Assembly: GCF_009936275.1 (NCBI RefSeq)
Contig: NZ_AP019797.1
Span: 487,501-551,500, forward strand
DNA from: Rhodothermus marinus
GTDB taxonomy: Bacteria; Bacteroidota; Rhodothermia; Rhodothermales; Rhodothermaceae
DNA length: 64,000 nucleotides
Direction of reading: 5' to 3'
In this document: positions 53,842 to 64,000 of the stretch, piece after piece
Layout of the letters: each line of letters begins with the position of its first letter
How positions within the stretch are numbered: the first letter of the stretch is position 1
The notes under the pieces: generated by a model
The model's database searches: none
Told to the model about the DNA's origin: nothing
Seen by the model: only the letters and a program-made list of their open reading frames with translations
Made by a program: the position numbers and the translations under genes

Positions 53842-56472
53842 ATGGAGGGAGCCCCTTCGCCTGCTCAGTTCTGGGCCAAGCTCCGGTACACGGAGGAGCG
53901 ACACCCCGAAAACATTGTGGCCTGGCATCCGCTGGTTGCCCACGCGGCCGACGTGGCGGCCGTCGTCGAGGCCTTGCTGCAACGCACGCTGCTTCGGAAA
54001 CGCCTGGCCCGATTGATCGGGTGGAACGACCTGGCGGAGGTGCACGTGGCCCGACTGGCCGTGCTGGCGGCGCTGCACGATGCGGGCAAAGCCAACCACG
54101 GCTTTCAGGACCAGGCGTTCGATCCTCGCGTGCGCAGCCCGGGGCACGTGCGCCCCATCGTCGAGATCCTCTGCGCAGATGAACCGGCCCGGTGGCTGGA
54201 GCCGCTCAAAATAGGGGAAATGGCGGGATGGTTCGTGTCGGAAGAAGTGTTCTACCACTTCCTGTTGGCCACCTGGTCTCATCATGGCCGGCCGGTGCTG
54301 CCGGAAGGGGATTTCCGGGCGCACTACTGGCGCCCTAACGCGCGGCGCGATCCTCGAGCGGCCTGGCGCCGTCTGGCCGAACTGGTGCGCCTGTGGTTCC
54401 CGGCGGCTTTTGCAGACGGCGCCGAACCATTTCCCGCAGATCCACGCTTTCAGCACGCGTTCAACGGTCTATTGACACTGGCCGACTGGATCGGTTCGGA
54501 CACGCGCTTCTTCCCCTATGCCGACGAGACGGCAGATCCGATGTGTCCGATCGAGCGGGCGCGGGAGGGAGCACGGCAGGCACTGCAGTCGCTGTTTCTG
54601 GACGCTGCAGGCGGGCGCAAGGCGCTGGGGGACGTGCCCGTGGGATTCCGCGGGGTGATCGAAGCCGGTACGCCCTATCCCATCCAGCAGGCCTGCTACG
54701 ACCTTCCGGTGCATCCGCAGGGAAGTCTGACCATTCTCGAATCGGACACCGGTTCGGGCAAAACCGAGGCGGCCGTGGCCCGCTTTTTCCGGCTCTATCA
54801 GGAGGGGCTGGTGGATGGGATGTACTTCGCCCTGCCTACCCGCAGCGCGGCCTCGCAGATCCACCGACGCATTACCGAGATCGTGGCCCGGGTCTTTCCG
54901 GAAGCCCATCGTCCTCCGGTGGTGCTGGCCGTTCCGGGCTACCTGCGCGTGGACGAGGCGGAGGCCGTTCGCCTGCCGGACTTTCAGGTGCTGTGGGACG
55001 ACGAAGCGTTGCGCTACCGCGGATGGGCGGCCGAGCATCCCAAGCGCTATCTGGCCGGTCCCATCGTGGTGGGGACGATCGATCAGGTGCTGCTCGCGGG
55101 CCTTCAGGTCAGCCATGCCCACATGCGGGCCGCCGCACTACTTCGCCATTTTCTGGTAGTCGACGAGGTGCACGCCTCGGCCCCCTACATGACGACCCTG
55201 CTGGAGCGGATCCTGGCCTTTCATCTGGCGGCGGGAGGGCACGCGCTGCTCATGTCGGCCACCCTGGGTTCCGTGGCGCGCGTGCGTTACGCGACGAAGG
55301 GCGGTACGCCACCACCGCTCGACGAGGCGGAAGGCGAGCGCTACCCGTTGCTGACGCACGTGGATGCCGGCCGCCAGAGGCTCGAGACGGTATCCGCTGC
55401 ATCGTCCGGCCGGGAAAAGCCGGTGACGCTCCGTCTTGAGCCCATCGCTTCCGATCCGCAGGCCATTGCCGAACGGGCCCTGCAGCATGCCCGCGCCGGA
55501 GCGCGCGTGCTGCTCATCCGCAACCGGGTGGAAGACTGTCTGGCCGTACAGCGGGCCCTCGAGGAAGCGGCGTGCGACGATCGTTCGCTGCTGCTGACCT
55601 GCAACGGCCAGCCCGTTCCGCATCATGGCCGCTACGCTCCGGAAGATCGCCGGGCGCTGGATGCCGCCATCGAGGCGGCCTTTGGCAAAAACAGTCCGAA
55701 GCGGGGCATTGTGGCCGCCTGTACGCAGACGGTGGAGCAGAGCCTGGACATCGATGCGGACCTGTTGATCACGGACCTGTGCCCGATCGACGTGCTGCTG
55801 CAGCGGATCGGACGGCTGCATCGCCACGAGCGCCCGCGGCCGAAAGGCTACGAACAGGCCGTGTGTCTGGTGCTGACGCCGGCGGAACGAGATCTGACCC
55901 GGACCATCCAGCCCGACGGTGGGGCACGGGGACCGCACGGCCTCGGCACCGTGTATCCGGACCTGCGGGTGATCGAGGCGACCTGGCGCGTGCTCGAAGG
56001 CCAGAACCTGTGGCAGATCCCCCGCGACAACCGCCGCCTGGTAGAACGCGCCACGCATCCGGCCGTTTTGCAGCAGATCGTCCGGGAAAAAGGCGAACGC
56101 TGGGAGGCCCATCAGCGCCACATACTCGGACAGGAAGCCGCCAATCGCTATGTGCCCGAGATTACAGGACTTCATTTCGAGCGGCCGTTCGGGGCGCATC
56201 CATTCGGCCGGGACATTGCGCCGCGTACTCGGCTGGGCGACGACGACTACCGGGTCGAGCTACCGGAGCCGGTTCTGGGACCGTTCGGCTGGCCTGTCGG
56301 AACGCTACCGGTGGCTTCCTGGATGGTCGGCGACGAGCTACCGGAAGAACCGAAAGCCCGGGACGTGACTCCGTTCGACGGCGGCTTCTCCTTTGTGTTC
56401 GCCGGAAGGCGGTTCCACTACGACCGCCTGGGCCTCCGGAAAGATTTTAATGAGGCGTTGGAACTTTCCTAG
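53842..56472 (+). CDS. cas3: Cas3 helicase-nuclease, type I-E
   Basis: 876 residues. The N-terminal HD nuclease has HPLVAHAADVAAVVE, LAALHDAGKANHGFQ and ATWSHHGRPV. The superfamily 2 helicase follows, with Walker A LESDTGSGKTEAAVARFF, DEVH box LVVDEVHASAPYMTTLL, motif III LLMSATLG and motif VI LQRIGRLHRHER. A C-terminal domain closes the protein. Cascade recruits it to the R-loop, where it degrades target DNA. The stop codon lies inside a 16-bp inverted repeat that begins the unusual cas3-cse1 gap, and a predicted promoter overlaps its last codons. Confidence 0.95.
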   Translation: MEGAPSPAQFWAKLRYTEERHPENIVAWHPLVAHAADVAAVVEALLQRTLLRKRLARLIGWNDLAEVHVARLAVLAALHDAGKANHGFQDQAFDPRVRSPGHVRPIVEILCADEPARWLEPLKIGEMAGWFVSEEVFYHFLLATWSHHGRPVLPEGDFRAHYWRPNARRDPRAAWRRLAELVRLWFPAAFADGAEPFPADPRFQHAFNGLLTLADWIGSDTRFFPYADETADPMCPIERAREGARQALQSLFLDAAGGRKALGDVPVGFRGVIEAGTPYPIQQACYDLPVHPQGSLTILESDTGSGKTEAAVARFFRLYQEGLVDGMYFALPTRSAASQIHRRITEIVARVFPEAHRPPVVLAVPGYLRVDEAEAVRLPDFQVLWDDEALRYRGWAAEHPKRYLAGPIVVGTIDQVLLAGLQVSHAHMRAAALLRHFLVVDEVHASAPYMTTLLERILAFHLAAGGHALLMSATLGSVARVRYATKGGTPPPLDEAEGERYPLLTHVDAGRQRLETVSAASSGREKPVTLRLEPIASDPQAIAERALQHARAGARVLLIRNRVEDCLAVQRALEEAACDDRSLLLTCNGQPVPHHGRYAPEDRRALDAAIEAAFGKNSPKRGIVAACTQTVEQSLDIDADLLITDLCPIDVLLQRIGRLHRHERPRPKGYEQAVCLVLTPAERDLTRTIQPDGGARGPHGLGTVYPDLRVIEATWRVLEGQNLWQIPRDNRRLVERATHPAVLQQIVREKGERWEAHQRHILGQEAANRYVPEITGLHFERPFGAHPFGRDIAPRTRLGDDDYRVELPEPVLGPFGWPVGTLPVASWMVGDELPEEPKARDVTPFDGGFSFVFAGRRFHYDRLGLRKDFNEALELS

Positions 56473-56486
56473 ATCAACAGTAATTA
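56458..56486 (+). promoter_or_regulatory. Candidate promoter of the crRNA-like mini-array
   Basis: TTGGAA (56458-56463), a 17-base spacer and TAATTA (56481-56486) would start transcription near 56493, exactly at the first degenerate repeat. It overlaps the 3' end of cas3 and also the 16-base element (56468-56483) that matches the pseudo-spacer. Confidence 0.4.
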
Positions 56487-56556
56487 AAATGAACGTGACG
56501 CCAGAATGCTGGCGATAGTCCTTACTGTTGATCTAGGTTCTACCGTAGATCAACAG
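56468..56556. repeat. Three copies of an 11-16 base element in alternating orientation
   Basis: CCTAGATCAACAGTAA (56468-56483) and its exact reverse complement (56522-56537) form a 16-bp inverted repeat. A third, direct partial copy TAGATCAACAG is at 56546-56556. The middle copy can pair with either neighbour. The middle and third copies both fall in the pseudo-spacer. Confidence 0.85.
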
Positions 56557-56582
56557 ATTCTCCACTCCCGTGGAGGTTGAAA
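56494..56582 (+). CRISPR. Degenerate mini-CRISPR unit (pseudo-repeat, 33-nt pseudo-spacer, pseudo-repeat)
   Basis: Two 28-base segments, 56494-56521 and 56555-56582, start exactly 61 bases apart, the period of the real array at 63490. Aligned without gaps to the array repeat they match at 17 and 15 of 28 positions. Both can form the same 6-bp stem (repeat positions 6-11 with 16-21) and 4-base loop. Changes at pairs 7/20 and 10/17 (both copies) and 11/16 (first copy) are compensatory. The first copy keeps the last seven bases ATAGTCC plus the G before them, which form the crRNA 5' handle after Cas6e cleavage. The pseudo-spacer is 56522-56554. This most resembles a crRNA-like regulatory RNA of the CreA or CRISPR-derived type that would be processed by Cas6e and loaded into Cascade. 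Confidence 0.7.
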
Positions 56583-56583
56583 A

Positions 56584-56623
56584 AAGCGAAACCCCGCAAG
56601 CTTCAAGCTTCGGGGTTTCGCTT
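56584..56623. terminator. Long hairpin after the mini-array, possible terminator
   Basis: AAGCGAAACCCCG (56584-56596) pairs with CGGGGTTTCGCTT (56611-56623), 13 bp, and an inner AAGCTT pair extends the stem. It could end the short RNA on the plus strand, although the T-tract there is weak. On the minus strand it is followed by a run of T. Confidence 0.5.
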
Positions 56624-56671: not shown

Positions 56672-57151
56672 ATGTGCATTTCTCGTCGTTCTCAAGTGGA
56701 CGGTGCCGTTTTGCGAATTCTTCTACGGCACAACGGTCAGTTAGCGGTTCGCGAACTTAACGATACCGCTGGTCACTTTATCATCAACAGCAGTACTCGA
56801 ATTCTGGTTCGCTATGCCAGCGGAAAGAATGGACGATGGCGCTTCACATTGAGAGAGGAAGATATAGCTACACTTCTAAATGACTATGCACAAAGTGGTC
56901 TCTTCGGTGCGTATCTGATTCTGGTTTGTGGACAAGAGGCGGTTGGTGTCCTCTCACCTGATGAGTGGTGTCAGCTGCTTGATTTGGGAGGCAATTATAA
57001 AGTCCAGACAATCACAATTTGCAGGGATGCTCGGTGCCAGATGGAAGTAACTGGTACTAGAGGACGCTTAGCATACAGGATTCCAGCCGCTCGCTTTCCC
57101 AGAATGATTCTTGGACAACGTGGTTTTAGACGTCGGCCCCAGGTAACCTGA
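56672..57151 (+). CDS. Unrecognised 159-residue protein inserted between cas3 and cse1
   Basis: Starts at ATG 56672, eight bases after GGAGG; the longer frame from 56570 would cover the hairpin region and is rejected. The protein is soluble, with no signal or membrane segment. It shows an alpha/beta pattern: a winged-helix-like start (VDGAVLRILLRHNGQLAVREL), then ILVRYASGKNGRWRFTLREEDIATLLND, a buried strand AYLILVCGQEAVGVLSPDEWCQLLDL, and a basic end (FPRMILGQRGFRRRPQVT). I recognise no family. A nuclease-like or regulatory fold is conceivable but not shown. Its base composition is near 50% GC against ~65% in the cas genes, a sign of separate origin. It is on the same strand, 16 bases before cse1, so it is probably expressed with Cascade. 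Confidence 0.7.
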   Translation: MCISRRSQVDGAVLRILLRHNGQLAVRELNDTAGHFIINSSTRILVRYASGKNGRWRFTLREEDIATLLNDYAQSGLFGAYLILVCGQEAVGVLSPDEWCQLLDLGGNYKVQTITICRDARCQMEVTGTRGRLAYRIPAARFPRMILGQRGFRRRPQVT

Positions 57152-57167
57152 CGATTAGGGAGGAATC

Positions 57168-58727
57168 ATGATGCGATACGCTCTTCTGGACGAACCCCTG
57201 ATCCGGGTGCGGTTCAAAGACAAGACGGTGCGGGGCTGTACGTTGCCGGAGGTGATCGTGGCCCTGCTACGCGATGCGGTGCTTGGCTTCGAAGCGCTGC
57301 AACCGCACCAGCAGCAGGCCTGGCACAGCTTTCTGGTGCAGCTTGTGGCCATGGCCGTGGCGCGCATCACGGGCGATGCCTTTCCTAAAGAGGCCGCACG
57401 CTGGCGACAGGCCCTGGTGGAGCTGGCCGGCGGCGAAGAAGCGGCCTGGTATCTGGTGGTATCCGATCTCAGCCGCCCGGCCTTCATGCAGCCTCCTGTT
57501 CCGGAAGGCTCGCTGGAAGCTGCCCGTTATAAGGCCGATGTGCAGACGCCGGACCAGCTCGACGTGCTGATTACGGCAAAAAATCACGACCTGAAGGCCC
57601 GGCGCATCGTGCAGCCCCGGCCCGAACACTGGCTGTTCGCGCTGGTGACGCTCCAGACGATGGAAGGCTTTCTGGGCCGGGGCAACTATGGCATTGTGCG
57701 CATGAACGGGGGATTCGGCAATCGTCCCCTGGTGGGGCTCACCCGGGCACTTTCGCCGGGCGCCCACTTCCGCCGCGACGTGCAGGTGCTGCTCGACGCC
57801 CGCCTGTCGTTTGCCGACCGCTACGACCTCGGGGGGCACGCGCTGCTGTGGTTGCTGCCCTGGGATGGAAAGAAGCAGAGCGGCATCCCACTCGAAACCT
57901 GCGATCCATACTTCATCGAAGTGTGTCGTCGGATTCGATTCCTGGAGGAGAACGGGCACATCGTGTGCTGGCGTGCCAACACCGAAGGGCCACGTGTTGC
58001 GGCTCCGAAGGAGCTGAACGGCGTCACAGGCGATCCCTGGACGCCCGTGGAAAAGTCGGACAAACCGAAAGCGCTGACCGTAAGCGATAGTGGCTTCACG
58101 TACCGGCTGCTCCAGCAGGTCTTCCTGTCCGGCGATTACGAACCGCCTGTAGCGCTTGCCTTCCGGGAAGATGAAAAAGACGGGGTGTACCTGGTGGCCC
58201 GTACGCTCGTGCGCGGTCAGGGAAAGACCGGCGGTCTGCACTTTCGGATCGTGCCGGTGTCGCAGGCGGCGGCGCGATGGCTCTCGGGGTCCGAGGAGCG
58301 GCGCACGAAGCTGGCCCGCCGGGCCGAACAGCGCGTCCGGTTGGCAGCAGATGTGCAGCGCAAGGTGCTCTATCCGGCGCTGGCCGCGCTGCTGAGCGGT
58401 GGACGGGATGCCCGCGTGGAGTGGGAGCAGGTGACGCCCTGGATCGAAGCCTTCGATCGCGCCGTGGATGCGCAGTTCTTCGATCGTCTGTGGGCTTCCG
58501 TGGAGCAGGACGAAGAAACTGCCCGTCGCGACTGGGAACGCTTTCTGCTGACCGAAGCCCGGCGTCAGTTCGCGGTGGCCGAGCACGGTATGCCCGTGGC
58601 GTCCGCGCATCACTGGCGGGCGCGCAGCCGGGCCCATGCGATCTTCGAGGCCCGATCCCGCGAGGTATTGCCGTATGCCTTCAATGCAACCCGTTCCCTA
58701 TCAACCGAACAGGAGGTCCGGTCATGA
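57168..58727 (+). CDS. cse1: Cas8e (Cse1/CasA), large subunit of Cascade
   Basis: 519 residues, normal for the family. It starts at ATG 57168 after GGGAGGA. Family features are the N-terminal FNLLDEPW-like YALLDEPLIRVRF, TLPEVIVALLRDAV, PAFMQPPVPE, NHDLKARRI and the loop GNYGIVRMNGGFGNRP, followed by a C-terminal four-helix bundle. In type I-E it recognises the PAM and helps recruit Cas3. Its stop overlaps the cse2 start by 4 bases. Confidence 0.92.
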   Translation: MMRYALLDEPLIRVRFKDKTVRGCTLPEVIVALLRDAVLGFEALQPHQQQAWHSFLVQLVAMAVARITGDAFPKEAARWRQALVELAGGEEAAWYLVVSDLSRPAFMQPPVPEGSLEAARYKADVQTPDQLDVLITAKNHDLKARRIVQPRPEHWLFALVTLQTMEGFLGRGNYGIVRMNGGFGNRPLVGLTRALSPGAHFRRDVQVLLDARLSFADRYDLGGHALLWLLPWDGKKQSGIPLETCDPYFIEVCRRIRFLEENGHIVCWRANTEGPRVAAPKELNGVTGDPWTPVEKSDKPKALTVSDSGFTYRLLQQVFLSGDYEPPVALAFREDEKDGVYLVARTLVRGQGKTGGLHFRIVPVSQAAARWLSGSEERRTKLARRAEQRVRLAADVQRKVLYPALAALLSGGRDARVEWEQVTPWIEAFDRAVDAQFFDRLWASVEQDEETARRDWERFLLTEARRQFAVAEHGMPVASAHHWRARSRAHAIFEARSREVLPYAFNATRSLSTEQEVRS

Positions 58728-63438: not shown

Positions 63439-63489
63439 TCAATCCTTAATTGTCCTTTTTTTGCCGCGGTTATGCCATAATGGCATAGA
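63439..63489 (+). promoter_or_regulatory. CRISPR leader
   Basis: A 51-base AT-rich segment between cas2 and the first repeat. It contains CTTTTTTT and, ending two bases before the array, a palindrome TATGCCATAATGGCATA (63471-63487, 7-bp arms). No clear -35/-10 pair is seen, so the promoter may lie in the end of cas2. Confidence 0.6.
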
Positions 63490-64000
63490 GGTGTCCCCGC
63501 ACCCGCGGGGATAGTCCCCGCCTTCCTCCACCCCGTTGACGAGCGCCTCGGGTGTCCCCGCACCCGCGGGGATAGTCCTTCGGTTCGGCTATCACTTCAG
63601 CTGACAAGCGGGGTGTCCCCGCACCCGCGGGGATAGTCCCTCCCGGTAACCGCCGCGATAGTAACGCTTCCTGGTGTCCCCGCACCCGCGGGGATAGTCC
63701 CGTGAGCCGCCAGGGCGAAGTGCCCTGGCGCTTGGTGTCCCCGCACCCGCGGGGATAGTCCCTGCTCGGCCGGATGCGGAACGACAACGGGCGGGGTGTC
63801 CCCGCACCCGCGGGGATAGTCCCTTCTCACTTGTGATCACCGACGTTTTGCCGGGGGTGTCCCCGCACCCGCGGGGATAGTCCTATCCCCGCTGTCGGCG
63901 CGCAATTCATCTGAGTGGTGTCCCCGCACCCGCGGGGATAGTCCCTGCGCCGCCGGTGGTCGATCGGAGACGGCCAGGGTGTCCCCGCACCCGCGGGGAT
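63490..64000 (+). CRISPR. Type I-E CRISPR array, nine repeats, continues beyond the window
   Basis: 28-base repeats begin at 63490, 63551, 63612, 63673, 63734, 63795, 63856, 63917 and 63978 (the last cut by the window end), period 61, with 33-base spacers. All visible repeats are identical. Each has a 6-bp GC stem with loop ACCC, then ATAGTCC. The base after each repeat is C in six spacers and T in two, so by the E. coli convention the functional repeat is 29 bases, with its last base taken from the PAM (NNY). Spacers show no similarity to each other. Confidence 0.98.

Follow-up and report, generated by a model that had tools for sequence, protein, structure and literature searches.

A predicted crRNA-like RNA with a matching upstream target in the type I-E cas locus of Rhodothermus marinus: probable Cascade-guided autorepression coupled to a gene of an undescribed family

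The interval between cas3 and cse1 in the type I-E CRISPR-Cas locus of Rhodothermus marinus encodes what is probably a CreR-type crRNA-like RNA, a guide with which Cascade would repress, at its promoter, the operon to which the RNA itself belongs; this operon would run from the RNA through a gene termed X here to cse1 and onward. The new element is the strict coupling of this guide RNA to gene X. The window analyzed is a 64,000-nt stretch of contig NZ_AP019797.1 (positions 487,501–551,500, forward strand) from a genome of 3.43 Mb, and it contains a complete type I-E system comprising cas3, ORF X, cse1, cse2, cas7, cas5, cas6e, cas1, cas2 and an array with the repeat GGTGTCCCCGCACCCGCGGGGATAGTCC. 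A first-pass annotation had proposed that a crRNA-like RNA from the cas3–cse1 gap is kept for a role other than immunity, either as a CreA-like RNA or as a regulator of cas expression. This proposal is supported, relatives keeping the stems, the handle and a seed match with PAM, and the evidence points more to a regulator of cas expression than to a CreTA system. The key feature, absent from that annotation, is an upstream target of the psi-spacer. The features of the locus are as follows.

53842–56472, + strand: cas3 (Pfam Cas3_HD and Cas3-like_C_2)
56458–56491, + strand: putative promoter TTG...N20...TAATTAAAATG, suggested by sequence inspection
56468–56482, − strand: predicted target, protospacer TACTGTTGATCTAGG, overlapping the last cas3 codons; a 15-nt exact match to psi-spacer nt 1–15
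56483–56485, − strand: PAM AAT (ATT on the + strand); AAC or AAT at this place in 7/7 loci
56494–56521, + strand: psiR1, degenerate repeat with stem CGCCAG/CTGGCG and handle GATAGTCC; 17/28 identity, stem covariation
56515–56575, + strand: predicted mature 61-nt crRNA-like RNA (8-nt handle ATAGTCCT, spacer, 3′ hairpin), as expected if Cas6e cuts at the stem base, as in type I-E systems
56522–56554, + strand: psi-spacer; repeat base 29, a T, occupies 56522 and the guide begins at 56523; contains a self-complementary hairpin
56555–56582, + strand: psiR2, degenerate repeat with stem CTCCAC/GTGGAG; 15/28 identity, stem 100% paired in seven loci
about 56584–56622, + strand: strong hairpin after psiR2 by RNA folding, with an A-tract on its 5′ side and a weak T-run on its 3′ side
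56672–57151, + strand: gene X, 159 aa, unnamed family; homologues in seven I-E loci
57168–58727, + strand: cse1 (casA), first Cascade gene (TIGR02547 casA_cse1 above cutoff), starting 16 nt past the end of X
63489–64000, + strand: the system's own CRISPR array, period 61

Besides ORF X and the strong hairpin, the gap holds two strongly diverged copies of the array repeat, for which the first-pass annotation gave identities of 17/28 (at 56494) and 15/28 (at 56555) and starts 61 nt apart; these figures are exact. Each copy still has the 6-bp stem, with six Watson-Crick pairs, and its 4-nt loop, and the last eight bases of the repeat, GATAGTCC, are unchanged in psiR1 only, again as described. Compensated changes at stem pairs 7/20, 10/17 and 11/16 had been claimed for both copies; all three are present in psiR1, but psiR2 has only those at 7/20 and 10/17. 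That the arrangement exceeds chance was borne out by shuffling of the 199-nt gap, two perfect stems 61 nt apart occurring in 0 of 20,000 shuffles. On the + strand of the window, array excluded, two such stems are unique to psiR1 and psiR2, and their joint identity to the repeat (32/56) is the highest, the next being 29. An Rfam search produced no match above chance.

Following the handle ATAGTCC plus T, the psi-spacer starts with TACTGTTGATCTAGG, and the reverse complement of TACTGTTGATCTAGG is present at 56468–56482, directly upstream of psiR1, with AAT on the protospacer strand. The predicted 61-nt RNA has the 5′ end ATAGTCCU. With up to two mismatches allowed, the genome has no AAN-PAM match to the seed besides this target. 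Its one further near match, the guide's own DNA, has no AA PAM, and PAM-based discrimination of self from non-self is therefore kept. In type I-E systems repeat base 29 derives from the PAM, and 70 of the 78 array repeats from four systems carry C or T there (8/8, 23/25, 8/10 and 31/35), giving independent backing to AAY as the PAM. For a direct reading of the PAM, two window spacers were compared with IMG/VR, where neither had a match. The psi-spacer of the window is also self-complementary at 56523–56556, forming a hairpin of 11–14 bp (z = −5.8) that hides the seed; it is weak in G024 and the other loci fold no better than shuffles, and this hairpin was dropped as a conserved device.

A search for X homologues among 114 genomes of the order identified 11 genomes, and a Cse1 search added an X upstream of cse1 in G065. 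In seven genomes (the window, G028, G064, G037, G024, G077 and G065) X is located between cas3 and cse1, and upstream of it each of the seven has a hairpin with an ATNGNCC handle, a spacer, a second hairpin and its own target with an AAC or AAT PAM, placed 16–73 nt upstream of the psiR1 stem. The seed matches its target at 7/7 positions in the window, G028, G064, G037 and G065 and at 6/7 in G024 and G077; over 12 nt the matches are 12 in the window, 9 in G028, 11 in G064, 9 in G037, 10 in G024, 8 in G077, which is the weak case, and 11 in G065. When each spacer is compared with all seven upstream regions, its best AA-PAM match is the one in its own region, the best foreign match reaching 5/7 in the seed and at most 8/12. 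The spacers are unrelated in sequence yet each matches its own target, indicating that guide and target changed together.

The mismatches themselves have a pattern. In the six clear loci, G077 being left out, mismatches within nt 1–12 cluster at positions 6 and 12 (6/12 versus 4/60 cells, Fisher p = 0.0009). These positions are the bases that are flipped out, and hence unpaired, in Cascade, and the clustering agrees with the prediction from Cascade geometry. Guide nt 1–5 match the target in all six, the only mismatches within nt 1–8 are at position 6 (three loci) or 8 (one locus), and nt 1–11 are fully matched in two loci. The distance from handle to second stem is 38 in four loci, 26 in two and 37 in G077 (38 if the stem is counted one base further in); the difference between 38 and 26 equals 2 × 6 nt and would represent two Cas7 steps.

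Stem covariation in relatives had been named as a check by the first-pass annotation, and both stems are kept and covary. The psiR1 stem has two-sided changes at all six pairs with 100% pairing in six loci (G064, with an irregular stem, is omitted); for the psiR2 stem pairing is likewise 100%, over seven loci, and two-sided changes occur at four pairs. These percentages are partly built in, as the aligned segments were picked as hairpins, a limitation from which the handle and target matches are free. Slid-partner controls collapse for both stems. The stems were aligned alone, a whole-gap MAFFT alignment being uninformative because the spacers are unrelated. The 61-base spacing between repeats, also looked for in relatives, is kept in four of the seven loci but not in the other three, where it is 65 in one, due to a longer psiR1 hairpin, and 49 and 51 in two, due to a spacer shorter by exactly 12 nt.

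When the full pattern (hairpin with handle, second hairpin and an upstream AA-PAM seed match of at least 6/7) was sought in 784 kb of locus sequence on both strands, only the seven loci were recovered, repeated matches representing overlapping fetches, and none was found in 2.56 Mb of shuffled sequence; the window has one further weak case, inside the true array. The pattern was absent from all 14 upstream regions of module-less type I-E loci. X and the RNA thus occur together in 7/7 versus 0/14 loci, a co-occurrence of which part may be plain physical linkage as the two adjoin. A phylum-wide Cse1 search added a single locus, G312, which lacks the module, and the Cse1 tree requires at least four gains or losses of the module. 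In G004, from the genus of the window, the cas3 end is 98.7% and cse1 94.6% identical to the window, with a gap of approximately 85 bp versus the roughly 700-bp module. The GC content of the window module is 0.48 versus 0.65–0.67 for the flanking cas genes, and it is also below that of the cas genes in other loci, clearly so in six of the seven and with a small difference in G024. On the basis of the near-identical flanks, low GC and repeated gain and loss, the module behaves as a swapped cassette.

The short cas3–cse1 gap of module-less congeners, which the module replaces, is the sole room for a promoter directly before cse1. By eye, a palindrome, GTGACATAACGTTGTCAC, was observed in this gap (L015, L016, L017), and a GGACAC..ATGTCC palindrome just before cse1 in several relatives of another family (L018, L021, L025); GTGACATAACGTTGTCAC is absent from the window. 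As judged from their sequence, these palindromes resemble operators to which a regulatory protein would bind, suggesting that protein-operator control may have been replaced by RNA-guided control in the window. A VapBC-like pair (ribbon-helix-helix and PIN, Pfam) is present inside the cas3–cse1 gap of G028 (L004, 399–1226), with a similar pair in L021, making the gap a hot spot of small modules with addiction or regulatory roles. G077 has pieces of another cas3-like gene upstream of its main cas3 (L047, 10803–12663), possibly a decayed copy.

The X homologues of the I-E loci are 22–44% identical to X of the window. No Pfam, NCBIfam or convincing PADLOC match was obtained for the family, and no sequence relative in the PDB. 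Foldseek comparison of an AF2 model (pLDDT 81) gave archaeal Hjc Holliday-junction resolvases as best match (E = 1.2e-3) together with tRNA-splicing endonucleases, a borderline result by which the modelled fold may be distantly PD-(D/E)XK-like; on inspection no conserved D...ExK was seen in the alignment. The phage family phrog_28860, of unassigned function, matches 10/10 members of the X family. tblastn with one X homologue detected nothing in the phage collection or viral contigs and one distant match in a Calothrix plasmid, and contig scans with X yielded a single further record, on the same contig as G064. Outside CRISPR loci, G067 has a divergently oriented homologue next to an integron integrase (TIGR02249), where the first gene cassette would be expected (L042, 4904–6491), and homologues in G011 and G012 are within nitrate-gene clusters; no psi element was found beside the X-like genes of these three genomes. 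Nitrate-reductase-type genes adjoin X homologues in two genomes, at L043 6682–7931 and L046 6159–6806, and one of these homologues overlaps a uroporphyrinogen methyltransferase-like gene. The nitrate-gene neighbours suggest that the family has a general role other than that of a toxin. X remnants with no psiRNA detected are present in G081, where the contig ends just upstream, and in G075.

A scan for consensus sigma-70 sequences found no promoter at the expected place upstream of psiR1. Inspection revealed a TTG-N20-TA-rich spacing shared with G028 and G024; a Bacteroidota-type −33/−7 promoter at the cas3 end is plausible. In five of the seven loci the complement of the PAM (GTT/ATT) overlaps the TTG element or is at most two bases from it (examples are GTTTGACA, GTTCTTGACA, GTTCTTGAT, ATTTGCAA and ATTGGAAC). 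In the window, with TTGGAA at 56458, this presumed −33 element lies upstream of the target; most other loci have the target at the TTG or upstream of it. Hairpins follow psiR2 in all seven loci. That of the window has its T-run on the minus strand and looks a better terminator for an antisense RNA than for the guide RNA, as do those of several relatives. If the hairpin terminates transcripts ahead of X, as it may, the targeted promoter would control the RNA only.

These data can be combined in a model in which transcription from the cas3-end promoter would cover psiR1-psiS-psiR2, read through the hairpin and continue into X, cse1 and the remaining genes of the Cascade operon. Cas6e would cut both degenerate hairpins, given their conserved structure, to produce a 61-nt guide. 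Cascade loaded with this guide would recognize the AAT PAM and pair through its seed-proximal part only at 56468–56482, where the sequence match is found; pairing would be too short to trigger Cas3 cleavage and the complex, by the precedent of CreA and CreR, would sit on the promoter and repress it. Occupation of Cascade by immune crRNAs, its scarcity or its inhibition by an anti-CRISPR would lift repression and raise both X and Cascade; X always accompanies the RNA and would be the first gene of the operon under repression. As cse1 begins 16 nt after X, repression would reach the Cascade operon, as for CreR. Counted against autorepression are the negative scan for a consensus promoter, the hairpin after psiR2, the position of the window target downstream of the TTG, the seed lying in an 11-bp hairpin and the weak G077 match.

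The constant presence of X permits a CrePA-like reading, in which the RNA serves to silence X, a toxin or anti-anti-CRISPR effector that loss or inhibition of Cascade would set free, and cas regulation is secondary. The joint presence and absence of X and RNA with its gains and losses on the Cse1 tree, the order promoter, RNA, hairpin, protein gene, the AT-richness of the module, like that of an acquired cassette, and the links of X to an integron integrase and to phrog_28860 all fit this reading, but X lacks KilA-N, the hallmark of CreP, lone homologues in nitrate-gene clusters without psiRNA would be odd for a toxin, and the proximity of cse1 to X means that Cascade would be repressed too; on balance it is unlikely. 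A decayed mini-array, in which a duplicated repeat-spacer unit drifts without function, would account for an identity to the array repeat of only 54–61%, but this is very improbable given full stem covariation, a kept handle and seed-target matches kept across lineages with unrelated spacers. The 14-nt inverted arms TAGATCAACAGTAA...TTACTGTTGATCTA might alternatively bind a repressor or form a terminator, as a protein operator or plain RNA hairpins; in the window they are a perfect inverted repeat with a third partial copy at 56546–56556, and congeners carry palindromes in this gap. In other loci, however, the arms are unrelated and their match has gaps at positions 6 and 12; an AAY PAM and an ATNGNCC handle always adjoin them, features that an operator would not require, and this explanation too has very little probability.

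Cascade-guided autorepression therefore remains the preferred reading. A more speculative extension, which we regard as possible though doubtful, is a two-part cassette of a type I-E guide and a nuclease-fold, apparently non-catalytic X, in which Cascade would hold both X and itself off, and X would be a new effector (a toxin, an anti-anti-CRISPR factor or a Cascade modulator) brought into action by titration or inhibition of Cascade; the cassette would move between cas loci, replacing another short regulatory segment between cas3 and cse1. If X is such a payload, it would represent a new class of CRISPR-guarded effector. The preferred reading would extend RNA-guided cas autorepression to an apparent lineage of thermophilic and halophilic bacteria, the Rhodothermales. 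Seven guide-target pairs of unrelated sequence that obey Cascade pairing rules make the mechanism testable by base swaps, an undescribed protein family tied to a guide RNA is exposed, and the swapping of the module in and out between near-identical flanks within one genus allows cas expression to be compared in matched natural loci.

Among known systems, autorepression by CreR has been reported for types I-B, I-E and V-A (PMC13131331), and the module shares with CreR a crRNA-like unit within the cas locus, degenerate repeats and a seed that partially matches, next to a PAM, a site in the putative promoter region before the Cascade genes. It differs in that X is always interposed and co-inherited, and in a spacer that is sometimes 12 nt short; promoter and repression are here predicted from sequence. 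CreR is usually uncoupled from a toxin gene (PMC12737573), and X would be a toxin only under the CrePA-like reading. CreTA, in which CreA is the guide and CreT an RNA toxin, likewise has two divergent psiR, and CreA of Halobacterium hubeiense pairs through psiS nt 1–5 and 7–11 beside a PAM (PMC8501985). CreTA is however of type I-B, and no conserved CreT minigene (strong RBS, rare-codon ORF) lies here between target and psiR1, a 9-codon ORF of the window (MNVTPECWR) having no counterpart in G024, G065 or G077. CrePA also combines a CreA guide RNA with a protein gene under the targeted region, but its toxin CreP carries KilA-N (PMC12737573), whereas X has no Pfam match and a fold that may be distantly PD-(D/E)XK-like. 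The scaRNA of Francisella Cas9 likewise has a degenerate repeat and makes a repressor of a CRISPR effector (PMC9458426), but in a type II system and with a trans target elsewhere in the genome.
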